Positions 3,094 to 36,936 of a stretch of 64,000 nt of DNA are shown one piece after another (positions within the stretch are counted from its first letter, which is position 1; every line of letters starts with the position of its first letter). Location: NCBI GenBank assembly GCA_037157565.1, contig JAZHRO010000039.1, forward strand, positions 45,384,001 through 45,448,000. The letters are read 5' to 3'. The position numbers and the translations under genes were made by a program. The notes under the pieces were generated by a model. The model ran no database searches, had not been told where the DNA came from, and was given only the letters and a program-made list of their open reading frames with translations. This DNA comes from Thalassia testudinum. Its lineage: Eukaryota > Streptophyta > Magnoliopsida > Alismatales > Hydrocharitaceae.

Positions 3094-3125
3094 TGTTAAG
3101 ACCCGTGCCACCAAAACCCTTTTAA

Positions 3126-3871
3126 GACGTCTAGGAGTTGCTCCAGACGTCTGGACACCGTCCCAGACATCCAGAAATCAATTTTTGCGTGCGTACGACC
3201 GCGAGTCAATGCTCGTGCCGCGTGCAGACTAAGCCCCAGCCGCCTTCTCTTTCTTCCCTCGCCAACATGCAGAGCTGCCCCCATCCGTCTCCCCTTTCCT
3301 CCAGCGCGAGAGCGAGGGCAGCAGGTGTAGTCGAGTGCAGCGGAGGAGAGGAGAGGAACAGCAAGGAGGGAAGAGAAGAGAGCGCGCGAGCCGTGAGAGA
3401 GAGAGAGCTCACCGGAGCAGCTCGAGGCCGGTTGGCTTGCGCGAGGCGAAGTGTGTGTCGGGGAGGTTCCCCCGATGCTGCTGCAACTAGAGCAGCGGAT
3501 GAGCGAGCGCGGCGCGGCCGCACGCAGCAGGAAGAAGATGAGGGAGCTTCTGATTCTGGGATTTTTTTCCCAGAATCAGACGTCCTGACCTACTTCCAGA
3601 TGACGTGGACGACATCTGGAGGGAGCTCCAGACGACTGAGAGGTACGTTTTGCGTCCTACGCTTCCTTTTGTGGACGTCTGTTGCATGCCGTGTTGAGAG
3701 ATTCTGCGTACGCGTGCAGGTTTCGCTTCGGGAAGGTACGGGACATACCCTCCCACGCGGTTCAGACGTCTGGGCGAGGCACCAGACGGCGAAGAGCGTC
3801 TCCAAACGTCCGAAGGAATAGTCGGACGTCTGGAACTGGGTCCAGACGGTTCAACACGATCCCTGGACGTC
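3126..3871. promoter_or_regulatory. GACGTC palindrome arrays in LTR A
   Basis: Six-base cores matching GACGTC exactly or nearly start at 3126, 3146, 3166; 3579, 3599, 3611, 3631; and 3765, 3785, 3805, 3825, 3845, 3866. The steps are 20, 20; then 20, 12, 20; then 20, 20, 20, 20, 21. Intact units extend to CAGACGTCTG. GACGTC is a C-box-like ACGT core bound by plant bZIP factors; binding here is inference. Confidence 0.7.
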
Positions 3872-4211
3872 TGAGGAGCAGCACAGAGTGAGGTATGATC
3901 TGGACCCCTTTTTATTCCAGACGTCTGATTTGAGTCAGAGTTGTCGCTTTTGACCTGTTAAGGGTCCGTTCGAGGTCCGATTTCCGCGTTTAAGATTTCG
4001 TTCTTCTTCGTATAAGTTCCTCTACTTGTTGGAATGCTTTTATCATGTTCTGAGTGGTTTCTTATGGTCGATCCTTGTGTTAGGACCACGTTCTATTGCG
4101 GATTTGGGGGTTGCGGAGGCACGTGGACCTGCCGACCACGCCCCCATTACTCTCGATTTTGTGGGTAGAGTGGCTTCCCTTAGTTAACTACAAACATAAA
4201 TGCATATCTGG

Positions 4212-4262
4212 AATGAATGATAGATCCTAGGGTATGGCATGAATCCTAGGACTAGAAACAGT
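4212..4262 (+). repeat. single unit of the ~52-bp CCTAGG minisatellite
   Basis: One unit with the pattern GATCCTAGGGTATGGCATGA followed by a second CCTAGG. The related LTRs have about three units (7995-8140), about five (11600-11850) and two (19330-19430, reversed). Confidence 0.6.
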
Positions 4263-5727
4263 GGAACGATTGTATTAAATGCCTGAAATGCAGTCTTGGA
4301 ATGAGTAGATGGAATAATAATTGCCTGTAATTGGATAACAGCTGCCAGTGAAATGTAGAGTACTGTTCTTAATAACTACTACATGTAATTTCTGTTGTTT
4401 GAAATTAAACACGAGCTGCATGTATATAAATTGGAAAAGAAAGTTTAAATGTTGGAAACCAGTGCTATATGCGAATAAACCTGAAATGATGAAACCTAGT
4501 ATGGCTTGGCCTGAGAAACATGAGCATGAACCCTACGGGAAATTAGGAGTAGAGCTTCTGGAAATAAATAGAATGGAACTGGAGAAGTGAATGGGAAAGT
4601 GTGCTGTCTCTTGGGTACATGATACTAAGGGAAGCACATGTTACCTCTTAGTGCAGAGCGGAGCTTGCCGCCCTAGGGTCGAGACCCAGGGTTAGGTCTG
4701 GCCACTTTGTACCGACTCTTGGCCCTCGCGTACACAGTACCGAGGAGAGCTACTAGTGTAGGGAGAGAGCTAGCCACCCCACGGGGCCCAGGGTTTAGCC
4801 AGCCATCTTACACTGACTTGTTAGGGCCACTGGGCAAACCAGGGTAGTCAGGCGAGGGTGCGCGAACTGTGGAGGGGCGAGACCCTTATTTGGTTACTGT
4901 GGAGGGGCTAGACCCCTGTTACTGAGAGGGCTCTGCCCTATACTGGTTCCGTGCTGTGCTTTGGACGCACCCATTAACGGAAACGACTGACCACGTACCA
5001 ATGCGGGGTAACTACCTGTGAGTTCATCGCGCGTGCCGTAGTCACCGTTACGTCTGTCAGCGACCTTGGGGTGGTTGACTGAGGGTAGGACCACCACGGG
5101 AGACTCTCCCGGCCAAGAGAGCACTACGTGCTATTTCTACTCTTCGGAAAAGACTACAATCAAGATCGTTCATACGAGGAACATTCGAGATCAAGAAAAA
5201 GACCTGATAAATAAACCAAGTGATGAAAGAAAGAATAATTAGTTGAATAAAGAAAGAAATTGAAAACAACAGCTACCTGTCCACCTTTACTGTTTAGTTA
5301 GCTGGTTGCCACTCTACTCAGCGTTTCGCTGATGTGTTGTACTTACCACCTTTTTCAGGTCCAGGTGTTGAGCATCCAGAGCCTACGGCTGCAGAGGGTG
5401 CTGGGCCTAATAGAGCCTAGAAGTTGTACTTTTGTTGTACCCGTTTTCTATAGTAGTAAGTATTTTGTTACACTTTTGTACTCTTTATTGTAAACTTCAT
5501 AATTCTGTACCTATTTTTAATTCTATACCGTTGTGGTGGTGTGTGCTGTAGTAGTTACTTCTTTAATGCTGTACTTTATTACTTTTAGTTGCTTGCATGG
5601 TGAATGTAGTTTATTTTACTGCTTTTTTGTTACTTTCTCGTTGGATGACTGGGTCTTGGGATCAGTCGAGTCGGTCCGATTCTCGTGTCTCGTAGGGATT
5701 CGGAGACACGAGAATCGGGTCGTAACA

Positions 5728-5999: not shown

Positions 6000-6806
6000 A
6001 TGTTTGGGAGGAGGTCACAAAACCCTGAATTTTTTGATAATTCTAGAAGGATAGAAACCGAATCGTCATCCTCCTCCACAAAAATGGCTGCACGCCCACC
6101 CCCAAATCTCGAGGGAGGAAATCGCCCCCCTCAAATCCCACCAGGTGGTGGTGGAGCCGTAGACCCCATAACCCGCCTCCAAGCCCAGATGGAAATGTAT
6201 AACAAGCAGATTGAAGCCATTAGGGAAACCTTGGAGGAAATGCAGAACCCTCCCGAACGGGAGGAGCCTAGGTCTCTTAGCTCTTATCAAAATCCTGCTG
6301 CTACCGAGACCATAGGACAAATTCGAGTCCCCATGGGCGGGGACGATTTTGAACTTAAACCTAATGTAATTGGCCTAATTAACTTTCACTTCCATGGTCT
6401 TGCAAGTGAAGATCCATTTCTCCATTTGGAAGACTTAACCCGATTGGTTGAAACGGTTAAACCAAGAAACATCGGGTTATCAATTATCCTCATGAAAATG
6501 TTCCCGTTTTCGTTGTGGGATAAAGCGTCGCAATGGTTACGCACCCTTGGGAGAACTATCCATTCTTGGGAAGAGATGCGAACAACATTTCTCGAGAAAT
6601 TCTTCCCAATCGAGTGAACCAATGCGCTTCGCCATGCTATAACTTCCTTCACGCAACAAAATGGTGAGCAGTTTCATTAGTCTTGGGAGAGGTATAATGA
6701 CCTCCCCCAGAAGTGTCTGCACCACGGTCTGCCTAAGTGGCATATAGCCCAGATTTTCTATTATGGGCTAAATTAGACTTTGAAGCAGATTGCAGATGCT
6801 TCCTGC
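6000..6806 (+). pseudogene. gag: gag of the Athila-type element, N-terminal part
   Basis: The ATG at 6000 opens 205 codons to a TGA at 6615-6617. The frame then continues as recognisable gag with further stops near 6676 and 6772, until solo LTR B interrupts it at 6807. The retrotransposon gag domain is visible from about residue 120: GLASEDPFLHLEDL, then MKMFPFSLWDKASQWLRTL, then TWEEM-like HSWEEMRTTFLEKFFP. After the first stop the typical SWERYNDLPQKCLHHGLPKW segment follows. Gag would form the particle that packages the element RNA. Stops plus two nested LTRs make this copy non-functional. Confidence 0.9.
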
Positions 6807-6826
6807 TGTTACGAACGCGCGCTTCA

Positions 6827-7701
6827 GACGTCTTTTAAGACGTCTGGGAAGTGGCCCAGACGTCTGGAACCACTTCCAGACGTCTGGGAATCGGTTATTT
6901 TTTGGCACGCGTGTTTCGTCTGCGCGCCTGAGCGCGCAGACCTGCGTACGCTCTCTCTCCCTCTCTTTTTCCCTCTCTCCTGCGGCCGCAGACCCACCTT
7001 GTCCGCTCTCTCTCTCCTCCTCGCGCGGCCTTAAAAGGCCACGCCCTCTCCCTCACTCCCGTCACCTCCGCCCCCTTCCTCTTCTCCTTCCAGCCAGTGC
7101 GCGAGAGCGAGCGCAAGTGAGCGACGGCAGCGACAGCCGCGGTGAGCGTGGGAGGTGGTGCTGCGCGTGGAAGAGGCGCTCGGCCGTGAGGGCGAGCTCG
7201 CCGGGGCTGCTAGGGTCGGCCGGCGGGGTGCGCAGCGGGCACGGAGCGACGCGGGGGGGGACTGCTGCAGTTTGAGCAGCAAGCGGACGAGACGCGGCGC
7301 GGCCGGGCGTCGTGAGCGGAGGGCGAGTCGCGCCCTGGTTCTGGAAACTTTTCCAGAATCAGACGTCTGGGCTTCTAGCCAGACAACTGGAACGATGTCT
7401 GGAAGACTGTCCAGACGTCTGAAAGGTGAGTTATTTCCGTCTTCTTCGTTTTCTTCGACTGACCGTACTGAGAGGGAGAGATGGGTACGCGCAGGTTCGG
7501 TGATTCGCCATCCAACGCGAATCCGACGTCTGGCTGTAGCACCAGACGACGGGAGCGACATCCAGACGTCCGGGGTGACCATCGGACGTCTGGGAACTAG
7601 GCCAGACGCCCCCGCAGGCTTCTGGACGTCTGAGAGCCCACACAGAGCAAGGTAATCCCTGATCCACCTTTTTAAGACGTCTGGAAGAAGTTCCAGACGT
7701 C
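6827..7701. promoter_or_regulatory. GACGTC palindrome arrays in LTR B
   Basis: Cores start at 6827, 6839, 6859, 6879; 7362, 7382, 7394, 7414; 7525, 7545, 7565, 7585, 7605, 7625; and 7676, 7696. Steps are 12, 20, 20; 20, 12, 20; five steps of exactly 20; and 20. Degenerate members such as GACAAC (7382), GATGTC (7394) and GACGCC (7605) still hold the register. The first array sits within 80 bp of the LTR start. Confidence 0.8.
7029..7052 (+). promoter_or_regulatory. candidate core promoter of LTR B
   Basis: TTAAAAGGCC is followed by GCCCTCTCCCTC. LTR C has TTATAAGGCC and the same pyrimidine patch at 10578-10602. The Athila-type LTRs share the module. Transcription from it is inferred. Confidence 0.45.
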
Positions 7702-7994
7702 TGATTTTGCACTTTTTCGTCGTTTTCGACCCGTTTAGGGCCCGTTCGAGTCCCGTTTTCCGCGTTTCGAGTTGCGTTCTTTTCGGAATTAAATCCTCTG
7801 CCCGTCTATAGTAGCTATGTACTATTTTGAGAAACTCCTTGTGTTTGATCCTTGTGACAGGACCCCGTTCCATTGCAGTCTCGGGGGTTGCGGAGGCACT
7901 CGGGATTCCCGACCACGCCCCCAGTACTCCTGTTGTAACCGGTAGAGTGGCTTTTAAGTTTATTAGTATAATCTGTTAATTATGAACCATAAAT

Positions 7995-8140
7995 AGAACC
8001 TAGGACATTGCATGAATCCTAGGAATGAGAAACAAGAATGAATGGTAGATCCTAGGGTGTTGCATGAATCCTAGGGCTGGAAAACTAGATTGTATGATAG
8101 ATCCTAGGGTATGGCATGAATCCTAGGATGAGAAGAACTA
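7995..8140 (+). repeat. ~50-bp CCTAGG minisatellite, about three units
   Basis: Units repeat AGATCCTAGGGT..GGCATGAATCCTAGG with small changes. Copy number differs between the homologous LTRs. Confidence 0.7.
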
Positions 8141-9505
8141 GTGGAATATATGAATAACTGCAGTCTTGGAAAATGTGGAAAGGAAATAATAGCTACCTGT
8201 AAATTGGTTTAACAACTGCCTGTTATGAATAAATGAGCATGTCTGGGAATATGGGATGTATGAATATGAAACTGGGAAGGTGAAACCTGAATGTGCTGAG
8301 TTAAAAGAACTGGAACCCTACGGGGAATTAGGAGTGGAGCTCCTAGAAAGAGAAAGGAATGGAACCGAGAAAGAAAGACGTGGTAGAGTGCTGTCTCTTG
8401 GGTACGTAGTACCAAGGGAAGTACCTGTACCTGTTTAGTGCAGAGCAGAGCCAGCCGCCCCAGGGACCCGGGGTTAGGACTAGCCACTTTGTACCGACTT
8501 GCTGGCCCTCGTGTACGTAGTATCGAGGAGAGCTACTAGTGTAGGGAGGTGCTAGCTACCCCACGGGCCCCGGGGTTCTGCTAGCCTCCTACACCGACTT
8601 GTTAGGCCCACTGGGCAAACCAGGGTAGTCAGGCGAGGGTGCGCGGACTGTGGAGGGGCAAGGCCCCTGTTTGGTTACTGTGGAGGGGTTGGACCCCTGT
8701 TACTGAGAGGGCTCTGCCCTGTACTGGTTCCGTGCTGTGCTTTGGGCGCATCCGTTAACGGAAACAACTGACCGCATGCCAGTGCGGGTTAGCTACCTGT
8801 GCGTTTATCGCGCGTGCCGTAGTCACCGTTACGCCTGTCCGTGACCTTGGGGTGGTTGACTGAGAGTAGGATCACCACGGGGGACTCTCCCGACCAGGAG
8901 AGCACCACGTGCTACTTCTACTTTTTGGAAAAGACTGCAATCAAGATCGTTCCCACGAGGAACATTCGAGATCAAGTAAAGGATCTGAGGAATAATTGAA
9001 ATCGTGAGACAAGTGAAAGACGTAAATAAAGAAAGTAACAGAACATAACAACTACTGTACACTCTACTGTTTTCTTTAGTTTTATTTACCACTCTACTCA
9101 GTGTTTTGCTGACATGTTACACTCGTTACCTTTCAGGACCAGGTGTTGAGCAGCCAGGGTCAACGGCTGCAGAGGACGCTGGGCAGAGTAGGGTCCAGTA
9201 GAGTTACCACCGTTCTCTTGTACCTCTTTTTGTTCCACTGTAGTGAGTAGTTCTTGTTTCCGCTGTACTTTTCTTTACCTGCAGTTCATATTATGTTATG
9301 AATGTTGTTCTACTGTTGTGGTGATATATACTGTAGTGGTTTCTTTCCTTACTGCTGTACTTTCTTACTGTCAGTTATATTCATGCTGAATGTGGTTTAT
9401 TTTACTGCTCTTTTGGTTACTTCCTCGTTGGACGACCAGGTCTTGGGATTAGTCGAGTCGGTCCGGTTCTTGTGTCTCGTAGGGACTCGGGAATCGGGTC
9501 GTTCA

Positions 9506-10345
9506 CCTGCCGAGGGAATTTCATGAATAAAGACGAGAATGGAGCATTCAAATTATTCGAAAACATGAGCGAAAATTCAATAACAATGCCTCCATTGTTG
9601 TCTTTAATCGTACCAACCTGCCCCGTAATGTTCACGAAGTTGACACGGGACCCTCCCATTCATCCACTGATCTTAGCCTTATCGCACAAAAATTGGATGA
9701 AGTCTCCGTCGTGCACAAGAAGCTGGACGAGCTTCTGGCCAATACCGCCCGTTCTATGGCAAACACCTCCACCTCACCACTTCGTCACAATCCTAATCTT
9801 TCCAACGCCAGTCTTATTCCCAAAAACTCCGTGAGATCTTCCTTACCAAGTGTCGTGCCAAGCGATTCGGTAAGTCATGTGGATCTGGCTTCTGCAAGCC
9901 AGTATTTTGATATGGAGGACCAAGCCTCCGTCTGCTCGGATGCATATTTAAATGCGGACTCGTCTTCTGGCTTAGGAGACGCTTACGCCCTGGGGAACAA
10001 CCCGTTTTCGGCTACTTACAACCTAGGGTGGCGAAATCATCCTAACTTCACATGGTCCAGTAACCCGCAACGCCAAAACCCCACGGGTGGGCTAATGCGA
10101 CTGTCCGCACCTGTCATCCCAAGGGCTCAATCTAATCCTGTTGAAAATCCGCCATCGGGTCCTTACACACCACAAACAGAACACGCATCAAGTCCTCTTG
10201 ATAAACTGATGCGAATGGTGACGGAAATGTCTAAGCGCCATGAAGAAAACATGACCTCTCCTCAGCACCAATTGGCGCAGCAGAATGCTGAGATTAGTCA
10301 ACTACGCATGGCAACTCGATCTCAAGGCACTTTTCCAGCCAAACC
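9506..10345 (+). pseudogene. gag: gag of the Athila-type element, C-terminal part
   Basis: Gag resumes after LTR B with GNFMNKDENGAFKLFENMSE, a conserved Athila segment. A frame change near 9600 breaks the reading frame. The longest open stretch is 9693-10345, where LDEVSVVHKKLDELL and then DAYALGNNPFSATYNLGW, RNHPNFTWSSN and a Q-rich coiled stretch (QHQLAQQNAEISQL) are seen. These match the linker and C-terminal part of Athila gag. LTR C interrupts it at 10346, just after GTFPAKP. Protease and the rest of pol never reappear before the integrase tail. Confidence 0.88.
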
Positions 10346-10365
10346 TGTTACGAACGCGGCCTCAA

Positions 10366-11302
10366 GACGGGTTTTTAAGACGTCTGGGAAGTGGCCTAGA
10401 CGTCTGACCCGACGTCTGGAACCCTTTCTAGACGTCTGGTATTAAATTTTTGCGACGTATGGGGTTGCGTCTGTGCTCATGCACGCGGAGACCTACACCT
10501 GCCGCTCTCTTCCCTCTTTTTCCCTCTCTCCTCCTGCAGGGCGCAACACGTCTCTCTCTCTCTCTCCCCGCGCAGCCTTATAAGGCCCCTCGCCCTCTCC
10601 CTCACCCTCATCTCCTCCGCGTCCTTCATCTTCTTCTCCCAGCCGGTGCGAGAGCGCGAGCGAGCAAGCGGCGGCAGCAGCGCGCTGCGGCGAGTGTGCG
10701 AGAGGAGGTGTTGCGCGAGGGAGACGCTCGATCGTGAGGGCTCGAGCTTGCCGAGGCAGCTAGAGCCGGCTAGCGGGGGGGAGCAGCAGGCGTGGAGTGT
10801 CGCAGAGGGACTGCTGCAGCTTGAGCAACAGGCGGACGAGGCACGACGCAGCCGTGCATCGCAGGCGGAGGGCGAGTTGAGCTCTAGTTCTGGAAATTTT
10901 TCCAGAATCAGACGTCTGGAATTACGACCAGACGACGGTGAAGACATTTGGAGGACTGTCCAGACGTCTGTCAGGTAAGATATTTCGGTCTTCTTCCTTT
11001 TCGCGCGTACGGCCATGCAGCCATCCGCCGCGCCTTCGTCTGCGACCCGTCGTACTGAGAGTAGGTATGGGTGCGTGCAGGTTCTGCTCGGGAGGGCGCG
11101 AGGGCTCGCCATCCCACGTGAATCAGACGTCTGGCCGCAGTGCCAGACGACGGGAAGGAATTCCAGACGTCCGGGGTGACCATCGGACGTCTGGGAACTA
11201 AGCCAGACGCCCCCACAGGCTTCTGGACGTCTAAGGGACTACACAGAACGAAGGTACGCTCTGACCCACATTTTAAGACGTCTGGAAGAGGTTCCAGACG
11301 TC
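10366..11302. promoter_or_regulatory. GACGTC palindrome arrays in LTR C
   Basis: Cores start at 10379, 10399, 10411, 10431 (20, 12, 20); 10911, 10931, 10943, 10963 (20, 12, 20); 11126, 11146, 11166, 11186, 11206, 11226 (five steps of exactly 20); and 11277, 11297 (20). A degenerate GACGGG at 10366 precedes the first set by 13. Confidence 0.8.
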
Positions 11303-11599
11303 TGATTTTGGGCAGTTTCGTCGTTTTCGACCCGTTTAGAGCCCGTTCGGAGTCTGTTTTTCGCGTTTCGAGTTGCGTTCTTTCCAGAATAAAATCCTCT
11401 ACCCATTTACAGAAATTATATACCATTCTGAGAAACTCCTTGTGTTTGATCCTTGTGTTAGGACCCCGTTTCATTGCAGTCTTGGGGGTTGCGGAGGCGC
11501 GCGGGATTTCCAACCACGCCCCCAATACTCCCGTTGTAGCTGGTAGAGTGGCTTTTAATTTACTTAATTCAAAATTGTTACAATTGTGGAATAATTAAT

Positions 11600-11850
11600 A
11601 GAGTCGAGGGCACTGCATGAACCCTAGGACTGAGGAACTAGATTGAATGATTGATCCTAGGGTATTGCATGAAACCTAAGACTGAGGAATTAGATTGAAT
11701 GATAGATCCTAGGGTATTGCATGAAGCCTAGGACTGAGGAACTAGATTGAATGATAGATCCTACGGTATTGCATGAAACCTACGACTGGAAACTAGATTG
11801 AATGATAGATCCTAGGGTACGGCATGAATCCTAGGACTGGAAAACTAGTG
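11600..11850 (+). repeat. 50-52-bp CCTAGG minisatellite, about five units
   Basis: Units begin GATAGATCCTAGGGTATTGC and recur at about 11649, 11701, 11753 and 11803, with an older partial unit before them. This is the longest tract among the family X LTRs here. Confidence 0.8.
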
Positions 11851-12597
11851 ATATGTATATAAATATTGCAGTCTTGGAAAGGTGGAAAGGAAATAATAGC
11901 TGCCTGTAAATTGATTTAACCGCTGCCTGTTATGAAAGAATAAATATGATTGAGAACATGGGTTGTATGAACGTAAAACTGGAACGGTGAAACCTAAATG
12001 TGCTGAGTTAAAAGAGCTGGAACCCTACGGGGAATTAGGAGTAGAACTCCTAGAAAGAGAATGGATGGAACTGAGAAAGAAAGACGTGGAAGTGTGTTGT
12101 CTCTGGGGTACGTGGTACCAACGAGAGCACACGTTACCTCTTCGTGTAGAAGGGAGCTTGCCGTCCTCAGGTTGAGACTGGGGTGGGTTTGGCCACTGTA
12201 CACTGACTTGCTGGCCCTCACGTACGCAGTACCGAGGAGAGCTACTAGTGTAGGGAGAGCACTAGGTACCCCACGGGCCCCTGGGTTATGCTAGCCTCCT
12301 ACACCGACTTGTTAGGCCCACTGGGCAAACTAGGGTAGTCAGGCGAGGGTGCGTGGACTGTGGAGGGGTTGGACCCCTGTTACTGAGAGGGCTCTGCCCT
12401 ATAATGGTTCCGTACTGTGCTTTAGGCGCACCCGTTAACGAAAACGACTGACCGTGTGCCAGTGCGGGGTAGCTACCCGTGCACTTATCGCGCGTGTCGT
12501 AGTCACCGTTACGTCTATCAGCGACCCTGGGGTGGTTGACTGAGGGTAGGATCACCACGGGGACTCTCCCGGCCAGGAGAGCACCACGTGTTACTTC

Positions 12598-13206: not shown

Positions 13207-13617
13207 TGTTGGTGCTAGAGCACCACGATCATTTGTTTTGATGATAACAAAACACGTGTTATTTAACATTTGCAATTTGAGTCCTAGATTTCAGGTCAAT
13301 TGCAAATGTGGACGTGTTTAGACGGAGTTCAAGCTCGCATCCAGGACGGATTGGAGGAGCTTGACGGAAAACAGAGGAGGTTCGCGTGGAGTGAAAGATT
13401 GGAGATGGAAGACAAGAAGAATAGGATAGATTCTTTTTTATCCTTTCATGTATCTCTTGTCTTTATTTTCTTGCTCTTTTTGATTTCTTAGAACATTATG
13501 TTAAAGAGCCTCAAAGAACCCTAACAGTAGTCCTACGAACACCGGCACAACCCTAGGATACTTAGGTTTTCTGTAGAATACTTAGAAAACCCATATAGGG
13601 TTCAAACAGCACTTCCA

Positions 13618-14155
13618 GACGTCTAATTCCCAAATCAGACGTCTGATAAAGAATTTTAAGACGTCTGACTGTTGTTTCAGACGTCTGATAACTGTTAGGC
13701 TGGACATAGTTAGTTCTGTCTGAGGAAATCAGACATCCAGACCTTAGACCAGACGTCTTAGGAGACGTCTGATGACTTTGCCAGACGTCCAATTAGTGGA
13801 CCGTTGGCTGGCTTAGAAAACACTCAAGATTATGACCGTTAGAGCCTTATCAGACGTCCATAGGACTTACCAGACGTCTGATAAATGACCGTTTTGCCTC
13901 GGCTGACCCAAAATCTCTTCTCAGAGATTTTCTAGCCGTTGCAACGTTTGGAAATCAATTCCCACAGTAAAAGTAGGTTTCCAGACGTCCATACATAGTA
14001 CCAGACGTCCTGTAAGTCGTCTCATGGACTTGCACAAAAACCCTGTTTAGATCTGATTCAAGTCAGGGAGAAACCCGCGTAGAATCAGACGTCTGACCTT
14101 GAGATCAGACGTCTTAAAGTGGCCTTCCAGACGTCTGATGCCAGAGTTAGACGTC
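13618..14155. promoter_or_regulatory. GACGTC palindrome arrays in LTR D
   Basis: Cores start at 13618, 13638, 13660, 13680 (20, 22, 20); 13732, 13752, 13764, 13784 (20, 12, 20); 13853, 13873 (20); 13984, 14004 (20); and 14088, 14108, 14130, 14150 (20, 22, 20). All lie upstream of the TATA box at 14269, the expected place for enhancer elements. Confidence 0.8.
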
Positions 14156-14268
14156 TGATAACCCTGTCAAATGCAATCATTGTCCTGATTTCGGCCTGAT
14201 TCTCTTGGGCTTTGCACCTAACGGCTATGGAAGCTTTTCCAAGCCTTCCAAAGCCTTCCTAAGGCCTC

Positions 14269-14276
14269 TATAAATA
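14269..14276 (+). promoter_or_regulatory. TATA box of LTR D
   Basis: TATAAATA lies in CCTCTATAAATAGAGG, a classic plant TATA context, and is conserved in the reversed copy at 23644-23651. Transcription would start about 30 bp downstream, near 14300-14310. Confidence 0.7.
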
Positions 14277-14960
14277 GAGGGGAGCCTTTACACACAAAAC
14301 ACACACCTAGAGACACAAGAGATACACTTAGAAACACAAGATATACACACTAAGACACACACTTTGCAATACACTTTCAAACCTTTTGTGTCCAAAGAAA
14401 AGACTCTCTTGCTCTCCAAGCTCAAGCTCCATTTTCTTGAGAGCATTCAACCGTTGCGCACCCGCTCTCCCGGCGTTGTTAACGAGAGCGACGTAGCGCC
14501 ATCGCGTGGCACACGCACCGCGTCATCGTCGACGCACTCCTTGCAAAGGGGAGTTTCCTATTTCCTATAGAAGCTAGGTTTAATTTTGTTGGCTCTATAG
14601 GACTGTTGTTTTATTTGATCTTTGTATTTTGGTTGGGTATTCGCTTTGCGAATTCCCGTCTCCTACGTGGGACAAAATCCTTCTCGTGGAGAGAAGGGGT
14701 TGAGGAACGCTACCCTCGTACTTGTAGCGTGGTTGTATTGAGGTTGAATCACCCTCGTTTTAAGTGATTCGGTTTAGTGGATTTGATCAACTAGGTTGAT
14801 CGGAAAATCCTAACTCAAGAGGGTTAGGTGGTGGTTTTCACCCGGTTTGGGTTTCCACCTAAAAATACCTGTGTACATTGTGCGATTGATTTTTGTGAGA
14901 TTGCTTTATATTTTTATTTCCGCATATTTTTACGTCACCCCTCCTAGTAGGGAACCTTCA

Positions 14961-15131: not shown

Positions 15132-15927
15132 TGTTACAACCCGGTTCCCGAATCTCGACAGGACACGAGACCGGACCGACTCGACTGATCCCAAGACCTA
15201 GTCGTCCAACGAGAAAGTAACCAAAAAGCAGTAAAACAAACCACATTCACCATGCAAGCAACTAATAGTAACAAAAGTACAGTAGTAAAGAAGTAAACTA
15301 CTACAGTGCACACCACCACAACAGCAAAAAATTAAACAGGTAAAGGAATATAAAGTTTATAATAAAAGAGTACAGAAGTGTAACAAAATTACTCACTACA
15401 ACGGAAACGTGGTACAACAAAAAGGTACAACTACTGGGCTCTACTGCGCCCAGCACCCTCTGCAGCCGTAGGCTCTGGCTGCTCGACACCTGGACTTAAA
15501 AAAGGTTACGAGTACAAAACGTCAACGAACGCTGAGTAGAGTGGCAACCAGCTAACTAAACAGTAAAGATGGATAGGTAGCTGTTGTTTTTCAATTTCTT
15601 TCTTTCTTTAACTAATTATTCTTTGTTTCATCACTTGGTTTATTTATCAGGTCCTTTTCTTGATCTCGAATGTTCCTCGTGGGAACGATTTTGATTGCGG
15701 TTTTTTCCGAAGAGTAGAAGTAGCATGTGGTGCTCTTTTGGTCGGGAGAGTCTCCCGTGGTGGTCCTAGACTCAGTCAACCACCCCAAGGTCACTGATAG
15801 ACGTAACGGTGACTACGGCACGCGCGAAAAACGCACGGGTAGCTACCCCGCACTGGCATGCGGTCAGTCGTTTTCGTTAACGAGTGAGCCTAAAGCACAA
15901 CATAGAACCAGTATAGGACATAACCGA

Positions 15928-18686
15928 TGTTAACGGGGACAACCGCAACGCGTCTCTTATAGTAGAGTCATTGTAGTATAGGATAAGATGGCTCTACGGT
16001 TGCCGTTACAATTAAAAATTTATTACTCGGAAATAAAAGAGTTCCCGAGGTCGAACTCAGGGAGCAAGTCGTATTCTAGAAGTACAGTATTTCTTATTAC
16101 AAAAATAAAGAGAGAGAGAGAGAGATGAAAATTTGGCTTCTCCTTCTTCTCTTCTTTCTTCCTCTTTGTCTTCTCTTCTCTTTGGCTCTTGGTTTCTTCT
16201 TCTTTGTCTATCTCCTCGTGGTCTTCTCTTCTGCCTTCTGTTCTTCCTTGTTTTCTCTTCTTCTTCTGTTCTTCAGATCTTCCTCTCGTGCTCTTCTTCT
16301 TCTTTGTCTATCTCCTCGTGGTCTTCTCTTCTGCCTTCTGTTTTCAGGACGTCGTCTCTCCTTCTTTCTTCTTTTCTTCTTCTTCTTCTTCAGTCCTTCT
16401 GTCCTTCTTCTTCTTTTGCCTTCAGGACGTCGTCTGATTTTCCAATCAGACGACTTAAACTGCTGCTGCTACAGTGTCTTCCTCAGCTTTCTTCTTCTCC
16501 TTCCTGCCTTCTCTTCTTCTTCTTCACCTGTGCCTGCACACTCAAAGTTCGATCAGAGGGCAAAACCTACTCTACACTCCCCCGCGTCTCTCTCTCTCTG
16601 AATTCGCTCTTAGGAAAGCTCTCCCAGAGCAACCGGGTAATCGGGTACGCGGGTCGCGCCCGGGTCCAGGCCCACCAGCGTGCGGTGGTGGGCGAGGAGT
16701 GCAGGTCGGACTTAGTTGGGTCGGGTCAGGTCCGCGGGGCATGAGCGCGGACGAGGCCGGGTAATCGGGCGGGTGAAGGGGACCTCACCCCGTGATCTGA
16801 GGCGAACAGCTTAAGGCACTTTTTGCCTTTAAGCGCCCGCTCGCCTCAGTGGGTTTCCGAGGTGGGACTAAATGTCCCACCCCAATTTGGATGCCTGCGC
16901 GGAGGAAGCAGCGGCAGTCGAGGCTTCGTGCGAGGGCTTCGCCTCAACTGCAGCCTGGCACTTCGGGAAGACACCCCATGCAGCCTGGGAGCCTGATCTG
17001 GGCGTGGCGTGCTTGGAGCAGCAGGTCGAAGGAGCTTCTTCACCTCAGCAATGGCGGTAGCGAGCGAAGTTCCTGTTTACAGAGAAAGGGCCTCTCGGCC
17101 TAATTAGATACGCGGAGTACCTTCGCCGTGGCACGGCGAAGGTGGTCAGAGGGTCTGCAGGTGGCAGGGTGAAGCCTAAGGGCCGCCCTAGGTCAAACTG
17201 CGGGTTGGGAAATGGGTGTATTCGGTGGAGTTGCAGAGGGCGATTTGGGGGAAGTGGAAGGGCAGAGGATGATCAGGGTAAGGAGGCGAAGGTTCTGCGG
17301 TGGTCGGCGAGCCGTGTGGGTTGCTGGAGTGATGGGAGCGGGTCGCCGGAGTGTGGCCGAAGGTGGAGAAGGTGTGGGTGATTAGGCGCGGTCGAGGGGT
17401 AATTAGATAAAAATAGCAGGGGGAAAAGAGAGAGAGGATAGAGAAGACTAATTCTAATCTAGCTAAAGTGACGAAGGGGACGAAGAGGCTGCCGGCTCGT
17501 ACCTACCGGAGCTGGAGAAGAAATGCCCAGTGGAGGAGGACGGCGGCGACGACGGGGCAGAGGCAGCGCGCACCGGTATTGCGCGACGCGGAGGAGAATC
17601 AGGAAGAAGTCTCTGCTGCTGGTATTGCGGCAGAGCGAAGAGGAGGAGGAGAAATCGCCGGAGCAAGGGGGCGTCTGTCGGAGTGGGAAGAGAGGAAGTG
17701 AGGGGGTATCTCCGTCAGATCCGAGCTGGGAAGAACGGCGGAGCGACGGGGGTATTTATAGGGGCAGAACCAGAGAGGAGGGCGGAGGGAGACGACGTGT
17801 CTCCCTCGCCGGGGGACGCCGGAGGAAGGATACCCATACCGTCCGTGCGTTCGCACGGGCGGTATGGGTGGTCGCAGCACTCAGGGGGGTGCTCCTGTGC
17901 TGGCTGACGACGCAGGGACCCCCATTTGACCTGGCAGGCCCTCCCCCTCACCCTGCGCGGCGCCATGCTCCGCGCAAGGTCGTCGGAGCATGGTGCTGGT
18001 CAGGTTTTGCAGGAGGGACCTGAATGCAAGGAATGAAGGAGAGTTAGGGGCCAAAATGTGAGGGTTCAAAAGTTGAGGGCCAAAAAGTAAATATATGAGG
18101 ACCAAAGTGTAAAGTTGGTCAAGAAGGTTTCTTCTTAGGCTCAAGTTTTTATACATGACTAATTAGGACCTAAGGATTCTGATGGTGAATTTTATTTCTA
18201 GATTAAACCTTGTTTGACCGATCAATTTACGTAAAAACCCAAATTAAGTTGTTAATTGGGCATGGTTCTCAATGTAAGTCAAAATGGGTTTCTAAGGCCA
18301 AATTGAAGGTTCTAAACCCTAGAGATTATTTTTCTATGAATTTTAGAGAGTTTATTTTATTTTTTCTCTGCCTCGAACCTCGTGTATTTAAGTGGGTTTG
18401 TTTTTAGGGTTACAAGATGTCATTTAATTCTTCGGAGTTGCTGTAGCCCTTGTTGAGTCATTTTATCCCACTTTTCTTCTTATTAGGTTGTTTTGACCTA
18501 TGTTTGGACCCTGAGTTACCCTGTTTTCAGATTGGATTGGTGAAATTACATTTTTACCCCTCAGTTTATGTTTTCTTTACAAACTCAGAATCTCTCTGAG
18601 CCAAGCCTTTCTAAGGTTATGTAGGAGCTTTTTCTTGCAAATCAGGGTTAAATGGTGCTAGTTTAGGGTTTGTGACGAGGTTCTCA
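15928..18686 (-). mobile_element. unclassified LTR-like insert inside LTR E
   Basis: The limits are set by where the LTR E sequence stops and resumes. The insert runs TGTTAACGGGGAC to GGTTCTCA, so it has TG/CA ends and may be a solo LTR. The flanks TAACC (15921-15925) and TTGCC (18687-18691) both align with GAGCC of intact family members, consistent with a decayed 5-bp duplication. On the minus strand a TATA box, CCTATAAATACC, lies at 17752-17765, so it is probably in minus orientation. It holds a long plus-strand pyrimidine tract (16133-16530). ORFs here are low-complexity and not credible genes. Confidence 0.65.
16133..16530. repeat. CTT-rich pyrimidine tract with a 100-bp tandem duplication
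   Basis: Almost pure C/T on the plus strand. The segment TCTTTGTCTATCTCCTCGTG at 16201 recurs exactly 100 bp later at 16301 with its surroundings. CAGGACGTCGTCT also occurs twice nearby (16346 and 16422), each a GACGTC core. Confidence 0.75.
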
Positions 18687-19329
18687 TTGCCCTCTCAGTA
18701 ACAGGGGTCTAGCCACTAAGAACCAAACAGGGGTCTCGCCCTCCACAGTCTGCACACCCTCGCCTAACTACCCTAGTTTTCTTAATGGGCCTAACAAGTC
18801 GGTGTAGGACGGCTAACTGAACCCCGGGCCCCATGGGGTGGCTAGCTGTCTCCCTACACTAGTAGCTCTCCCCGGTACAGTGTACACGAGGGCCAAAAAG
18901 TCGGTACAGAGTGGCCAATCCTAACCCCAGGTCCTAACCCTAAGGTGGCTAGCTCCGCTCTGCACTAAACAGGGGAATAGTTGCTCTCCTTGGTACTCTG
19001 TACTCAAGGGCCAGCTCACTTTCCCATTCTCATTTCCAGTTACATTCCATTTATTTCCAAGAGCTCTACTCCTAATTCCCCGTAGGGTTCATGCTCATGT
19101 TTCTCAGCCCAAGCCATACTAGGTTTTATCATTTCTATTTCCATTTCATATACAGGCAGCTCGTATTTAATTACAACAATAGGAATATACATGCAACAGT
19201 TGCTAACAACAGTACTTTACATTTCATAGGCGGTTGTTATTCAATTACGGGCAATTGTTATTATTTTATTTACTCATCCAAGACTGCAATTCATGCATTC
19301 AATACAATTATTCCAGTGTTTCTAGTCCT

Positions 19330-19430
19330 AGAATTCATGCCATACCCTAGGATCTAACATTCAATCTAGTGTCTCTAGTTCTAGGATTCATGCCATACCC
19401 TAGGATTTAACATTCATTCCAGATATGCAT
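19330..19430 (-). repeat. CCTAGG minisatellite, two units, in LTR E
   Basis: Two units of TTCATGCCATACCCTAGGAT occur in reverse orientation relative to LTRs A-C. Confidence 0.65.
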
Positions 19431-19704
19431 TCATGTTTGTAATTAATCTAGGGGAAGCCACTCTACCAATAAAACCAGGAGTAATGGGGGCTTGATCGGC
19501 AAGTCCACGTGCCTCCGCAACCTCCAAATCCACAACGGAACGAGGACCTAACACATGGATCAACCACAAGAAATCACTCAGAACATGATAAAAGCATTCC
19601 AACAAGTAGAGGAACTTATACGAAGAAGAACAAAATCTTAATTGCGGAAATCGGACCTCAAACGGACCCTAAACGGGTCAAAACAACAATCCTGATTCAA
19701 ATCA

Positions 19705-20099
19705 GACGTCTGGAACACCTTCCAGACGTATTAAAAGAAGTCCAGAACCATACCTCGACCCTGCATTACTCCTCAGACGTCCAAGGACTCTGTTGAACCG
19801 TCTGGACTCAGTTTCAGACGTCCGACCTCTTCTCTGGACGTCTGGAGACGCTTCCCGTTGTCTGGTGCCTCGCCCAGACGTCTAAACTACGTGGGAGGGT
19901 GTGTCCCGCGCCTTCCCGAAACGAATCCTGCACGCATGACGCAAAATCTTCTTGAAAGGGCACGAAGCAATGCCTCGGCGGAACGGCCTGCATGGCTGTA
20001 TCCGCAAAGGGAGGTGTAGGTGGGGGGACGTACCTCTCAATCATCTGGAGCTTCTTCCAAACGTCTACGTCGTCTGGATGTCAATCCAGACGTCTGATT
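19705..20099. promoter_or_regulatory. GACGTC palindrome arrays in LTR E
   Basis: A pair starts at 19705 and 19725 (20). A longer row starts at 19776, about 19797, 19817, 19837, about 19857 and 19877, where the members at 19797 and 19857 are degenerate. This mirrors the six-member row of LTRs A-C. Further cores occur near 20090. Confidence 0.7.
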
Positions 20100-20613
20100 C
20101 CAGGAAAATACCAGAACCAGGGACTGCCCTCGCCTTCTCGCGCTACGCGCAGCCGCGCCGTGCCCGCTCGACCGCTGCTTTGGCTGCAGCAGCGTCGGGG
20201 AGAACCTCCCCGACGCAACTCTCCGCCTTGCTCTCTCTCGACCGACCGTGAGCTTCTTCGGTGAGCTCTCTCGCGAGCTCGCGCGCTCTCCTCTCTTTCC
20301 CCTTCGTTGCTCCTCCTCTTCGCCACTTCACTCGCTGCACTCGCTCTCGCTGGAGGAAGGAGAAGGTGGCTGGAAGTGGGGTGGTGAACGAGGGAGAGAA
20401 GGGTTTAAGTAGGTGCGGGGGAGGGTTTCGTTTGTGAGAGGGGAGAGAAGAAGGCGGCTGTGCACAGTCTGCGTGCGGCACGCGTGCAGACTCGAGGACG
20501 TACCCACACAAAAATTGATTTCCAGACATCTGGGAAGGTGTCCAGGCGTCTAACCAGATGTCTAACCCAAGTCCCAGATGTCTTAAAGGGCTTTAATAGC
20601 ATGGGTCTTAACA

Positions 20614-22921: not shown

Positions 22922-24691
22922 TGAAGGTTTCCTACTAGGAGGGGGTGACGTAATAATATGCGGAATTGAAATATAAAGCAATCTCACAAAAATCAATCGC
23001 ACAATGTGAAAGTTCTCCCTACCAGGAGGGGTGACGTAATAAAATTGCGGACATAAAAAATTAAAGCAATCTCACAAATATCAATCGCAAAATGTACACA
23101 GGTATTTTTAGGTGGAAACCCAAACTGGGTGAAAACCACCACCTAACCCTCTCGAGTTAGGATTTTCCGATCAACCAAGTTGATCAAATCCACTAACCGA
23201 ATCACTTTGAACGAGGGTGATTCAACCTCAATACAACCACGCTACAAGTACGAGGATAGCGTTCCTCAACCCCTTCTCTCCACGAGAAGGATTTTGTCCC
23301 ACGAAGGAGACGGGAATTCGCAAAGCAAATACCCAACCAAAAGACAAAGATAAAATAAAACAACAGTCCTATAGAGCCAACAAAATCAAACCTAGCTTCT
23401 ATAGGAAATAGGAAACTCCCCTTTGCAAGGAGTGCGTCGACGATGACGCGGTGCGTGTGCCACGCGATGGCGCTACGTCGCTCTCGTTATCAACAGCGGG
23501 AGAGCGGGCGCGCGAAGGCTTGATGCTCTCAAGAGAATGAAACTAAAGCTTGGAGAGCAAGGGCCTCAATTGGACACAAAAGAGTGGAACTAAGTTGCTT
23601 AGGTGTGTCTCTTGTTTCTCTTAGTGTGTAAAGGCTCCCCTTCTATTTATAGAGGCCTTAGGAAGGCTTTGGAAGGCTTAGAAAAGCTTCCATAGCCGTT
23701 GGGTGCAAAGCCCAAGAGAATCAGGCCGAAATCAGGACAATGATTGCATTTGACAGGGTTATCAGACGTCTAACTCTGGCATCAGACGTCTGATTCCAAT
23801 GTCAGACGTCTGATTCTATGCGGGTTTCTCCCTGACTTGAATCAGATCTAAACAGGATTTTTGTGCAAGTCCATCAGACGACGTACAGGACGTCTGGCAC
23901 TATGTCTGGACGTCTGGAAACCTACTTTTACTGTGGGAATTGATTTCCAAACGTTGCAACGGCTAGAAAATCTCTGAGAAGAGATTTTGGGTCAGCCGAG
24001 GCAAAACGGTCATTTATCAGACGTCTGTAAAGTCCTATGGACGTCTGATAAGGCTCTAACGGTCATATTCTTGAGTGTCTTCTAAGCCAGCCAACGGTCC
24101 ACTAACTGGACGTCTGGCAAAGTCATCAGACGTCTCCTAAGACGTCTGGTCTAAGGTCTGGACGTCTGATTTCATCAGACAGAACTAACTATGTCCAGCC
24201 TAACAGTTATCGGACGTCTGAAACAACAGTCAGACGTCTTAAAATTCTTTATCAGACGTCTGATTTTGGGATTAGACGTCTGGAAATGCTGTTTGAGCCC
24301 TATATTGGTTTTCTAAGTATTCTATAGAAAACCTAAGTATCCTAGGGTTGTGCAGGTGTTCCTAGGACTACTTTTAGGGTACTTTGAGGCTCTTTAACAT
24401 AATGTTCTAAGGAATAAAAAAGAGCAAGAAAGTAAATACAAGAGATACATGAAAGGATAAAAAAGAATCTATCCTATTCTTCTTGTCTTCCATCTCCAAT
24501 CTTTCGCTCCACGCGAACCTCCTCTGTTTTCCGTCAAGCTCCTCCAATCCGTCCTGGATGCGAGCTTGAACTTCGTCTAAACACGTCCACATTTGCAATT
24601 GACCTGAAATCTAGGACTCAAATTGCAAATGTTAAATAACACGTGTTTTGTTATCATCAAAATAAATGATCGTGGTGCTCTAGCACCAACA
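22922..24691 (-). mobile_element. Solo LTR F, family Y, reversed
   Basis: The plus strand reads TGAAGGTTTCC at the left and GGTGCTCTAGCACCAACA at the right, the reverse complement of LTR D. Flanks are TATAT on both sides (22917-22921, 24692-24696), a target duplication, though within TA-rich DNA. GACGTC cores start at 23765, 23785, 23805; 23889, 23909; 24020, 24040; 24109, 24129, 24141, 24161; 24213, 24233, 24255, 24275. The 20 and 12/22 steps match LTR D. The LTR terminus is tandemly duplicated at the left (22922 to about 23110), which D lacks. Confidence 0.9.
23644..23651 (-). promoter_or_regulatory. TATA box of LTR F
   Basis: TATTTATA on the plus strand, in CTATTTATAGAGG, corresponds to the TATAAATA of LTR D. 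Confidence 0.65.
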
Positions 24692-36107: not shown

Positions 36108-36589
36108 AGTTGAGGAAATTTCCTTGCAAGATTAGTAGGCTGCAGTAACCGTTCTGCTGCTTTGTCCAACTACGGGATTCCTCTGAGCTAATGGATATTG
36201 ACAAGGTGGCTGATCCCCTTGAAGAGCGAAACTTGGATGTTGAGACAGTAAAGAAGTTCAGCAAGGAGGCTGCAAAATCGTTTTTTGATGAGTATGGCCC
36301 CATCAGTCATCAGATCAACTCATATAATGAGTTCATCACGAGTGGCATTCAGAATCTATTTGATTCTCTTGGGGAAATCACAGTTGAACCAAACTATGAA
36401 CCCAATAAAAAAGGGGAGAGTGGATGGAGATATGCGACTATAACCTATGGAAACGTCTCACTGGAGCCACCGACATTTTGGATACCATCTGGGGATCATG
36501 AGGGGGAAGAGCTAAAATTACTGCCAAGGCATGCACGACTTCAACATATGACCTATTCATCTCGTATGAAGGCTGAAGTGAATGTGCAG
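36108..36589 (+). CDS. NRPD2: second-largest subunit of RNA polymerase IV/V (NRPD2/NRPE2), first coding exon; CDS from 36191
   Basis: The ATG at 36191 opens 133 codons to a donor CAG|GTAATC at 36589/36590, phase 0. The protein reads SFFDEYGPISHQINSYNEFI, then QNLFDSLGE, SGWRYATITYGNVSLEPPTF, and LPRHARLQHMTYSSRMKAEV before NVQ. This matches the N-terminal protrusion region of NRPD2/NRPE2: SHQxNSYNxFI, WRYAT, LPxHARLQxMTYS. Pol II Rpb2 lacks this wording. The protein is the shared catalytic second subunit of Pol IV and Pol V, which drive RNA-directed DNA methylation of transposons in the nucleus. No later exon was recognised to 64000, so this is either the 5' end of a gene with a transposon-filled intron or an orphan fragment. 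Confidence 0.85.
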
Positions 36590-36936
36590 GTAATCGAGTT
36601 GTGTTCAATGATCTGATTTTTTCCATATTTCTTGTCATATTAATTTTTTTAACAATTAGATATTGCTCATTGAATTCTAAGCATTTGCAGTGAAGCTATA
36701 AAGTCTGTCAAACCATACAAGGGACTAAAAGTTTTTTGAATTATTTTTGTTTTGAGCATCTATTTTAGTTAGTGATTATGGTTGCACTCCAACTGTTGTG
36801 TGACTTAGGGAATATGTACTTATCTTTACTGCATTTTCTGGTAATACTAGTAGTAATTAGCTATTTGCATGCAGTTTACAAATGAATCTCTAATTACCTT
36901 CAATGAAGGAGACACTGTTGCCATCCATTTTGTTGG
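36590..36936 (+). other. start of NRPD2/NRPE2 intron, up to the copia insertion
   Basis: A T-rich intron-like stretch. TTTACAAATGAATC at 36873 follows an AG and stays open for about 60 bp, but its translation does not resemble the next NRPD2 exon. It ends with GTTGG, the target duplication of the copia composite. Confidence 0.45.

Follow-up and report, generated by a model that had tools for sequence, protein, structure and literature searches.

The window, by which we mean the whole stretch of 64,000 nucleotides of Thalassia testudinum DNA that was analyzed, contains LTRs of two families, X and F, in which palindromes with the core GACGTC recur at regular steps. The features on which the analysis relies are as follows.

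Positions 3094–5727, plus strand: LTR A of family X, a member of a diverged subfamily, flanked by GAAGG and GGAGG (one mismatch).
Positions 6807–9505, plus strand: LTR B, a solo LTR of family X, with the TSD CCTGC at 6802–6806 and 9506–9510 (ends and TSD read directly).
Positions 6824–6887, plus strand: cluster 1 of LTR B, in U3 and 5′ of the TATA-like box, with cores at 6827, 6839, 6859 and 6879 (steps 12-20-20).
Positions 7029–7040, plus strand: TATA-like stretch of LTR B, CCTTAAAAGGCC, recognized by its sequence, with a putative TATA-box function.
Positions 7359–7422, plus strand: cluster 2 of LTR B, with lattice positions 7362, 7382, 7394 and 7414 (steps 20-12-20).
Positions 7522–7633, plus strand: cluster 3 of LTR B, with six lattice positions at 20 bp, from 7525 to 7625.
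Positions 7673–7704, plus strand: cluster 4 of LTR B, with cores at 7676 and 7696.
Positions 10346–12597, plus strand: LTR C of family X, without its 3′ end, with four clusters starting at 10379, 10911, 11126 and 11277.
Positions 13207–14960, plus strand: first copy of the family F LTR, TSD TTCAC, with a lattice at 13618–14150 in steps of 20, 22 and 12 bp and longer.
Positions 15132–20613, minus strand: LTR E of family X, split by an insertion at about 15921–18688, TSD TATGG.
Positions 22922–24691, minus strand: second copy of the family F LTR, TSD ATATA, with 15 exact cores at LTR offsets 412–922.

Over 2767 aligned columns LTR B shares 82.5% identity with the 5′ LTR of a family X element located elsewhere in the genome (L005). 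All four cores of its cluster 1 are exact GACGTC. Among the 11 aligned copies of family X, cluster 2 measures 64 bp in 10 and 61 bp in LTR E, cluster 3 measures 112 bp in seven and 113 bp in four, and cluster 4 measures 32 bp in 10, being cut to 16 bp in LTR A. In the second F copy all of the exact cores (15/15) lie upstream of TATAAATAG (offset 1041). The X LTRs carry further signals as well. Splice-like signals are located in LTR B at 7425/7426 (an AG/GT donor after cluster 2), 7494 (a CAG acceptor before cluster 3) and 7651/7652 (a donor after cluster 3), and they recur in most aligned copies despite diverged surroundings, which suggests that introns may be present in the untranslated leader around clusters 2 and 3. 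Directly before cluster 2, at 7337–7360, there is the near-palindrome GGTTCTGGAAACTTTTCCAGAATC, found in related form in 10 of the 11 aligned X copies (it is absent from L001) and with a middle of variable length. The downstream part of X LTRs contains 52-bp tandem repeats around CCTAGG (7993–8134 and 11607–11839).

The sequence-only reading of this locus had described six GACGTC cores in a row in LTR B at exactly 20 bp; the positions stand, of which 7525, 7565, 7585 and 7625 are exact, while 7545 (GACGAC) and 7605 (GACGCC) carry one mismatch each. In the 20-12-20 set that it listed for the same LTR, 7382 and 7394 deviate from GACGTC by two mismatches and one, respectively, and 7362 and 7414 match it exactly. 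A direct check showed that LTR C repeats the spacing of LTR B at 10911–10963 and 11126–11226, as had been claimed. The repeat reported for LTR A holds for most of the spacing, with the exception of the last step, which is 41 bp and not 40 (3825 to 3866), and in its 3579–3631 set only 3579 is exact GACGTC. When six LTR stretches of the window were compared with dinucleotide shuffles (300 shuffles each, one mismatch allowed), 5 to 9 pairs were observed at 20 bp, against a shuffled mean of 0.00 to 0.08 and a single maximum of 3, so that the proposed 20-bp peak is clearly above the shuffled background.

The same peak is found beyond the LTRs of the window, both in sampled stretches and in genome counts. 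In 12 stretches of 10 kb, taken outside the window at round genome coordinates, 44 occurrences of GACGTC give 12 pairs at 20 bp, which is the top spacing, while 11 other six-letter words reach a maximum of 3 pairs at any spacing. In the whole 4.26-Gb genome there are 478,420 exact GACGTC pairs at 20 bp vs. 3,075 pairs of the reversed word used as a control; triples at 20-20 number 35,242 (control 16) and mixed 12-20 triples 58,430 (control 18–23). The seven spacings from 13 to 19 bp, summed over the genome, yield just 7,728 GACGTC pairs and 13,078 pairs of the reversed word, the latter count being a rough yardstick only, since the reversed word is a different word and is here the commoner one.

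A scan for CAGACGTCTG with up to 2 mismatches covered the 12 stretches and the window, at spacings up to 70 bp. The main spacings were 20 bp (59 pairs), 32 (23), 52 (17), 40 (14), 12 (10) and 60 (9), followed by 42 (6) and 22 (3); no pairs at all were found in this material at 13–19 or 23–28 bp, and six shuffled palindromes, scanned as a control, gave at most 2 pairs. The repeat unit is a 12-bp dyad, roughly YCAGACGTCTGR, and the spacers between units are 0 or 8 bp long and nearly without letter preference. Among the 376 GACGTC sites with full flanks in the loci sampled, 299 have a second exact core at 12, 20, 32 or 40 bp. Removal of near-identical sites left 77 arrayed and 51 isolated sites for a letter profile. 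With strands pooled, the 77 arrayed sites read Y C A/G GACGTC Y G R, the informative positions being the core and three flanking bases; positions 4–11 from the core contain 0.00 to 0.15 bits and the mid-spacer 0.00–0.04 bits, a profile that is a weaker test than the comparison of subfamily identities given below, since the non-redundancy filter favours divergent spacers. A purine precedes the core in 524 half-sites out of 540 (270 arrayed sites). Complementarity of the left and right flanks within the 77 arrayed sites was 0.62 at k=1 vs. 0.60 permuted, stayed below the permuted value at k=2 to 4 and exceeded it at k=5 alone (0.39 vs. 0.30), while the isolated sites reached 0.63 at k=1 vs. 0.41 permuted (0/1000). 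In the arrayed sites there is no general excess of flank complementarity over the permuted level, hence the dyad is visible as an average of half-sites; at the lattice positions 2639 and 2801 of L005, which are conserved, mainly the left half is kept. Palindromes at 12/20-bp steps with free spacers form a lattice that exists on the scale of the genome and in two superfamilies of retrotransposons.

Family X, the LTRs of which measure ~2.7 kb, is a Ty3/gypsy chromovirus. When pieces of L005 were searched separately, Pfam matches were obtained to Retrotrans_gag, RVP_2, RVT_1, RT_RNaseH, Integrase_H2C2 and SH3_Tf2-1, and also to Chromo (27.4 bits, cut-off 25.1), with an rve match of 29.9 bits just below the cut-off of 32.6; it is this domain set, with a C-terminal chromodomain, that assigns the family. 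By its large LTRs and its tail sequence it presumably resembles the Tekay/Del branch. An antisense frame of 342 codons is located on the minus strand opposite gag (L005 4732–5760 and L022 5757–6785); its length is equal in these two 95% identical copies, and that of L005 is without a Pfam match.

The lattice, which was initially reported for family X, is not restricted to it, since the copia-type LTR family F carries it as well. Two F LTRs at about C1:1171060–1176060 (L038) enclose ~1.5 kb with a gag of copia type (Retrotran_gag_2, E 1.2e-8, 35 bits, cut-off 27), a Met-tRNA-type primer site and, ahead of the 3′ LTR, a purine tract, TGGTATCAGAGC and AAAAAGGGGGAGA adjoining the LTRs; this copy is without pol. 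L038 is a non-autonomous Ty1/copia element, and it is by the gag and ends of this copy only that family F is classed as SIRE-like. With cores masked, no direct blastn match was found between the F LTR copies and X LTRs, and the sole X–F blastn chain passes through L003, a composite of both families. The X and F lattices belong to unrelated LTR lineages, gypsy and copia. After masking, blastn connected the arrays in L014, L031/L032, L036 and L049 with neither the X nor the F references.

For the comparison of cores and spacers 11 X copies were aligned, and L001, the 5′ part of which is not LTR sequence, was dropped from the counts; L027, L028, L030, L031, L032 and L036 stayed outside the alignment, as did L050 and L051, which were fetched later. 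The 12 lattice positions of clusters 2–4, degenerate ones included, were marked on the register of L005, i.e., the lattice is defined on a single copy and the cores anchor the alignment. Between the X subfamilies (6 × 4 copies) identity amounts to 84.7% in the six core bases (core6) and 79.3% in the three bases on each side (flank3), but to 41.3% in the spacers and 55.3% in the other LTR sequence; for the whole 12-bp core it is ~82%, compared with 41–42% for the spacers. Within the two X groups the classes rank alike, with 93.0 and 84.2% for core6 and 71.7 and 72.4% for the spacers. Between subfamilies, gap cells make up 2.1–2.4% of each of the three lattice classes and 7.1% of the remaining sequence, and these low and even rates, taken together with the diverged spacers, imply that spacer length is kept where the letters are not.

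As a neutral yardstick the LTR pairs of seven insertions (six X and one F) were used, paired by spacing and orientation alone. Post-insertion differences were found at 28/1380 core, 8/625 spacer and 97/5440 other positions (without the F pair, 19/1216 core and 7/565 spacer). Since cores mutate at least as fast as spacers after insertion, the cores look as if held by selection on the active lineages. When these differences were contrasted with subfamily divergence, Fisher's test rejected an equal core-to-spacer ratio every time (24 of 24, p 0.00004 to 0.0037), though the comparisons are not independent of one another. The differences between family F and its ~70% relative L048 number 22/130 in cores, 21/48 in spacers and 225/559 elsewhere, a contrast like that in family X. 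The conservation of cores and step length goes beyond what post-insertion mutation explains; what selection seems to preserve is the palindromes and the length of the step, not the letters between them. The former proposal that spacing is better kept than letters, beyond shared descent of the flanks, is upheld by this contrast of subfamily and post-insertion differences. No sign of a protection of the cores from methylation was seen, since the post-insertion decay of CpGs is no slower in cores (14/139) than elsewhere (28/539, p 0.046).

A dimer that contacts its neighbours would need the palindrome and the step, not the letters of the spacer, and this matches what is conserved. It is probable that the lattice in these two unrelated retrotransposon lineages is a cis-acting array of putative dimer-binding sites, which would serve as an LTR enhancer or in promoter licensing. 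Each site would be a 12-bp dyad (about YCAGACGTCTGR), and sites would either abut, giving the 12-bp step, or leave 8 bp free between them, giving the 20-bp step; a sequence-specific protein would bind as a dimer and touch the neighbouring dimers. In both X and F the lattice occupies U3, 5′ of the TATA-like box, and X has lattice clusters downstream of the box as well; given the U3 place common to both lineages, an LTR enhancer or promoter-licensing element would be its likeliest role. One host factor may read the lattice of both lineages, or, alternatively, a factor coded by one lineage might be exploited by the other; since the code is common to two superfamilies, the binding factor is probably host-coded. 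Four points are inferences: that a protein binds, that it is a multimer, that it acts in transcription, and where it comes from.

The DNA helix has ~10.5 bp per turn, at which 20 bp correspond to 1.90 turns, 12 bp to 1.14 turns and 20+12 = 32 bp to 3.05 turns. The suggestion that the sites lie on one face of DNA is thus true only roughly, as six of them in a row at 20 bp drift by about half a turn. Because 32 bp make 3.05 turns, sites at alternating steps of 20 and 12 bp stay in phase, whereas a pure run of 20-bp steps drifts.

Two families of plant factors had been named as possible readers. The bZIP C-box is TGACGTCA, bound by dimers at a GACGTC core. This core is common to both systems, but the lattice flanks have mostly A or G before it; none of the 270 arrayed sites is TGACGTCA and just 2 half-sites out of 540 have a T ahead of the core, and on these counts a bZIP C-box array was rejected. 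ARF proteins recognize the core TGTC, the inverted or everted repeats of which are bound by spacing-dependent cooperative dimers. The dependence on spacing is alike, but the lattice unit YCRGACGTCYGR contains neither TGTC nor GACA, with the reservation that sites were picked by GACGTC and their core was preset. The original observation is confirmed as real and its interpretation is partly supported: a multimeric DNA-binding protein is, as we infer, still the likeliest reader, and bZIP as that protein is not.

It is unlikely, in our estimation, that the lattice acts at the RNA level, with neighbouring palindromes forming stem-loops (GUCUGG-n8-CCAGAC) for packaging, dimerisation or leader splicing. 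Any two neighbouring cores are able to pair, some single examples lengthen the stem, and clusters 2 and 3 of the X LTRs adjoin splice-like signals. When the spacer halves were permuted among 43 non-redundant N14 spacers (93 distinct), pairing at spacer position 1 was 0.65 vs. 0.52 permuted, a value reached by 19/500 shuffles; at position 3, however, it was 0.47 vs. 0.38 permuted (58/500), and neither positions 2 and 4–7 nor the six non-redundant spacers of 12-bp steps showed an excess of pairing. A hairpin of RNA or DNA as the selected unit, which single examples suggest, was set aside, the permutation being not clearly supportive. Moreover, since the TATA-like box comes after both the F lattice and X cluster 1, these would be transcribed from the 3′ LTR only.

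The strand pattern of substitutions bears on the same choice. Nine lattice sites of family X, compared across ten copies, showed 8 C>T and 7 G>A changes at their central CpG, a symmetry expected for a double-stranded site. Substitutions of the whole 10-mer, on the other hand, are strand-asymmetric (in X, C>T 29 vs. G>A 13; in family F, with all positions pooled, C>T 8 vs. G>A 26), which favours RNA and weakens the double-strand argument, although many of them are site variants common to several copies. The strand pattern does not settle whether DNA or RNA is the selected form.

More doubtful again is a VANC-like system, in which the arrays would recruit an element-coded protein that strips silencing marks. 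According to the available parts of two reports, VANC proteins of the Arabidopsis VANDAL elements bind arrays of a short motif clustered in noncoding TE DNA, with one DNA-binding factor involved, and VANC6 motifs are also present in AT9TSD1, a TE unrelated to VANDAL (PMC5735166, PMC10398659). The lattice resembles these arrays in being a cluster of noncoding TE motifs that reaches across families. VANC targets, however, are described there as tandem repeats with units that diverged together, whereas the seagrass lattice is palindromic, has fixed 12/20-bp steps and free spacers, and is located in retrotransposon LTRs; the available parts do not mention a fixed step with free spacers for VANC targets, and the word "spacing" is absent from both main texts (PMC5735166, PMC10398659). 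The elements themselves also argue against it: in L005, the sole X copy examined, Pfam recognized no further DNA-binding protein or domain of this kind in 5 of the 30 listed frames, just ~84 bp are left between pol and the 3′ LTR, and core CpGs are not spared after insertion.

Units of the lattice are gained and lost. Copies of family X differ in cluster 1 by whole units, F copies differ by 12, 20, 22 and 52 bp, and one exact 20-bp duplication is visible in L029. Recombination between identical cores gives whole-unit change automatically, thus a change in whole steps does not by itself prove function, and it is for this reason that the argument for function is built on the conservation of cores relative to spacers. 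Whole-unit changes and the L029 duplication would equally be produced by a neutral and functionless tandem array, its 20-bp unit spread by slippage and homogenised by recombination, but this is very improbable, since the cores are kept between spacers that for the most part have nothing in common, cores are not exempt from mutation after insertion, and an equal step in gypsy and copia LTRs is not predicted.

We class the lattice with LTR cis-regulatory arrays, among which it would be a new form, and not with VANC systems. Plant LTRs are known to have transcription-factor sites repeated in their U3 (the BII boxes of Tnt1, Tto1 and the heat elements of ONSEN), where the enhancer repeats comprise few sites and are confined to one family each. 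Repeated putative factor sites in U3 are what the lattice has in common with them; it differs in having up to 15 exact cores per LTR, fixed steps and carriers in two superfamilies. In the open-access literature searched, no spaced, palindromic or repeated motif of this kind was found in plant LTRs, the string CAGACGTCTG had no match on plant LTRs by title, and the available part of one paper on plant LTRs contained nothing on motif spacing (PMC11656987). The combination of a strict step grammar, free spacers and signs of selection, common to gypsy and copia elements, is unusual.

A matK frame of 509 codons in the assembly is 86% identical to that of Enhalus acoroides, 85% to Stratiotes aloides and 83% to Ottelia fischeri, with one further record at 93%, which places the plant in or near the Hydrocharitaceae; the RT matches listed, at least 120, are 47–68% identical. 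In Thalassia testudinum LTR/Gypsy elements constitute 63.18% of the genome and a gypsy burst is dated to ~200 thousand years ago, as stated in the available part of the report (PMC7615686). The lattice may bear on why LTR/Gypsy elements fill such genomes. It is a tentative thought, though one worth stating, that gypsy and copia elements gained the fixed-step lattice independently or by exchange and have it read by a single trans-acting protein of this plant lineage, which binds DNA and oligomerises, and that one shared activation or licensing system drove the amplification which left about half a million phased pairs in the genome. The lattice predicts one multimeric DNA-binding protein in an aquatic monocot, and the sequence signature helps to find it. 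How did two unrelated element lineages come to one promoter code? This question is directly testable.

Several minor observations were made in the course of the analysis. At L018 2365–10000 a step of 3.9 kb is repeated in tandem, with 3,707 bp aligned at 99.9%, and each step contains one phased core pair beside a purine-rich stretch. An open frame at 36149–36613 of the window matches the RNA polymerase Rpb2 domain (E 1.2e-9) and is possibly a fragment of a host gene. One broken matK-like fragment, covering profile positions 46–117, recurs on 33 contigs in the range C82 to C236, always below 45 kb; these are perhaps organelle-derived repeats.
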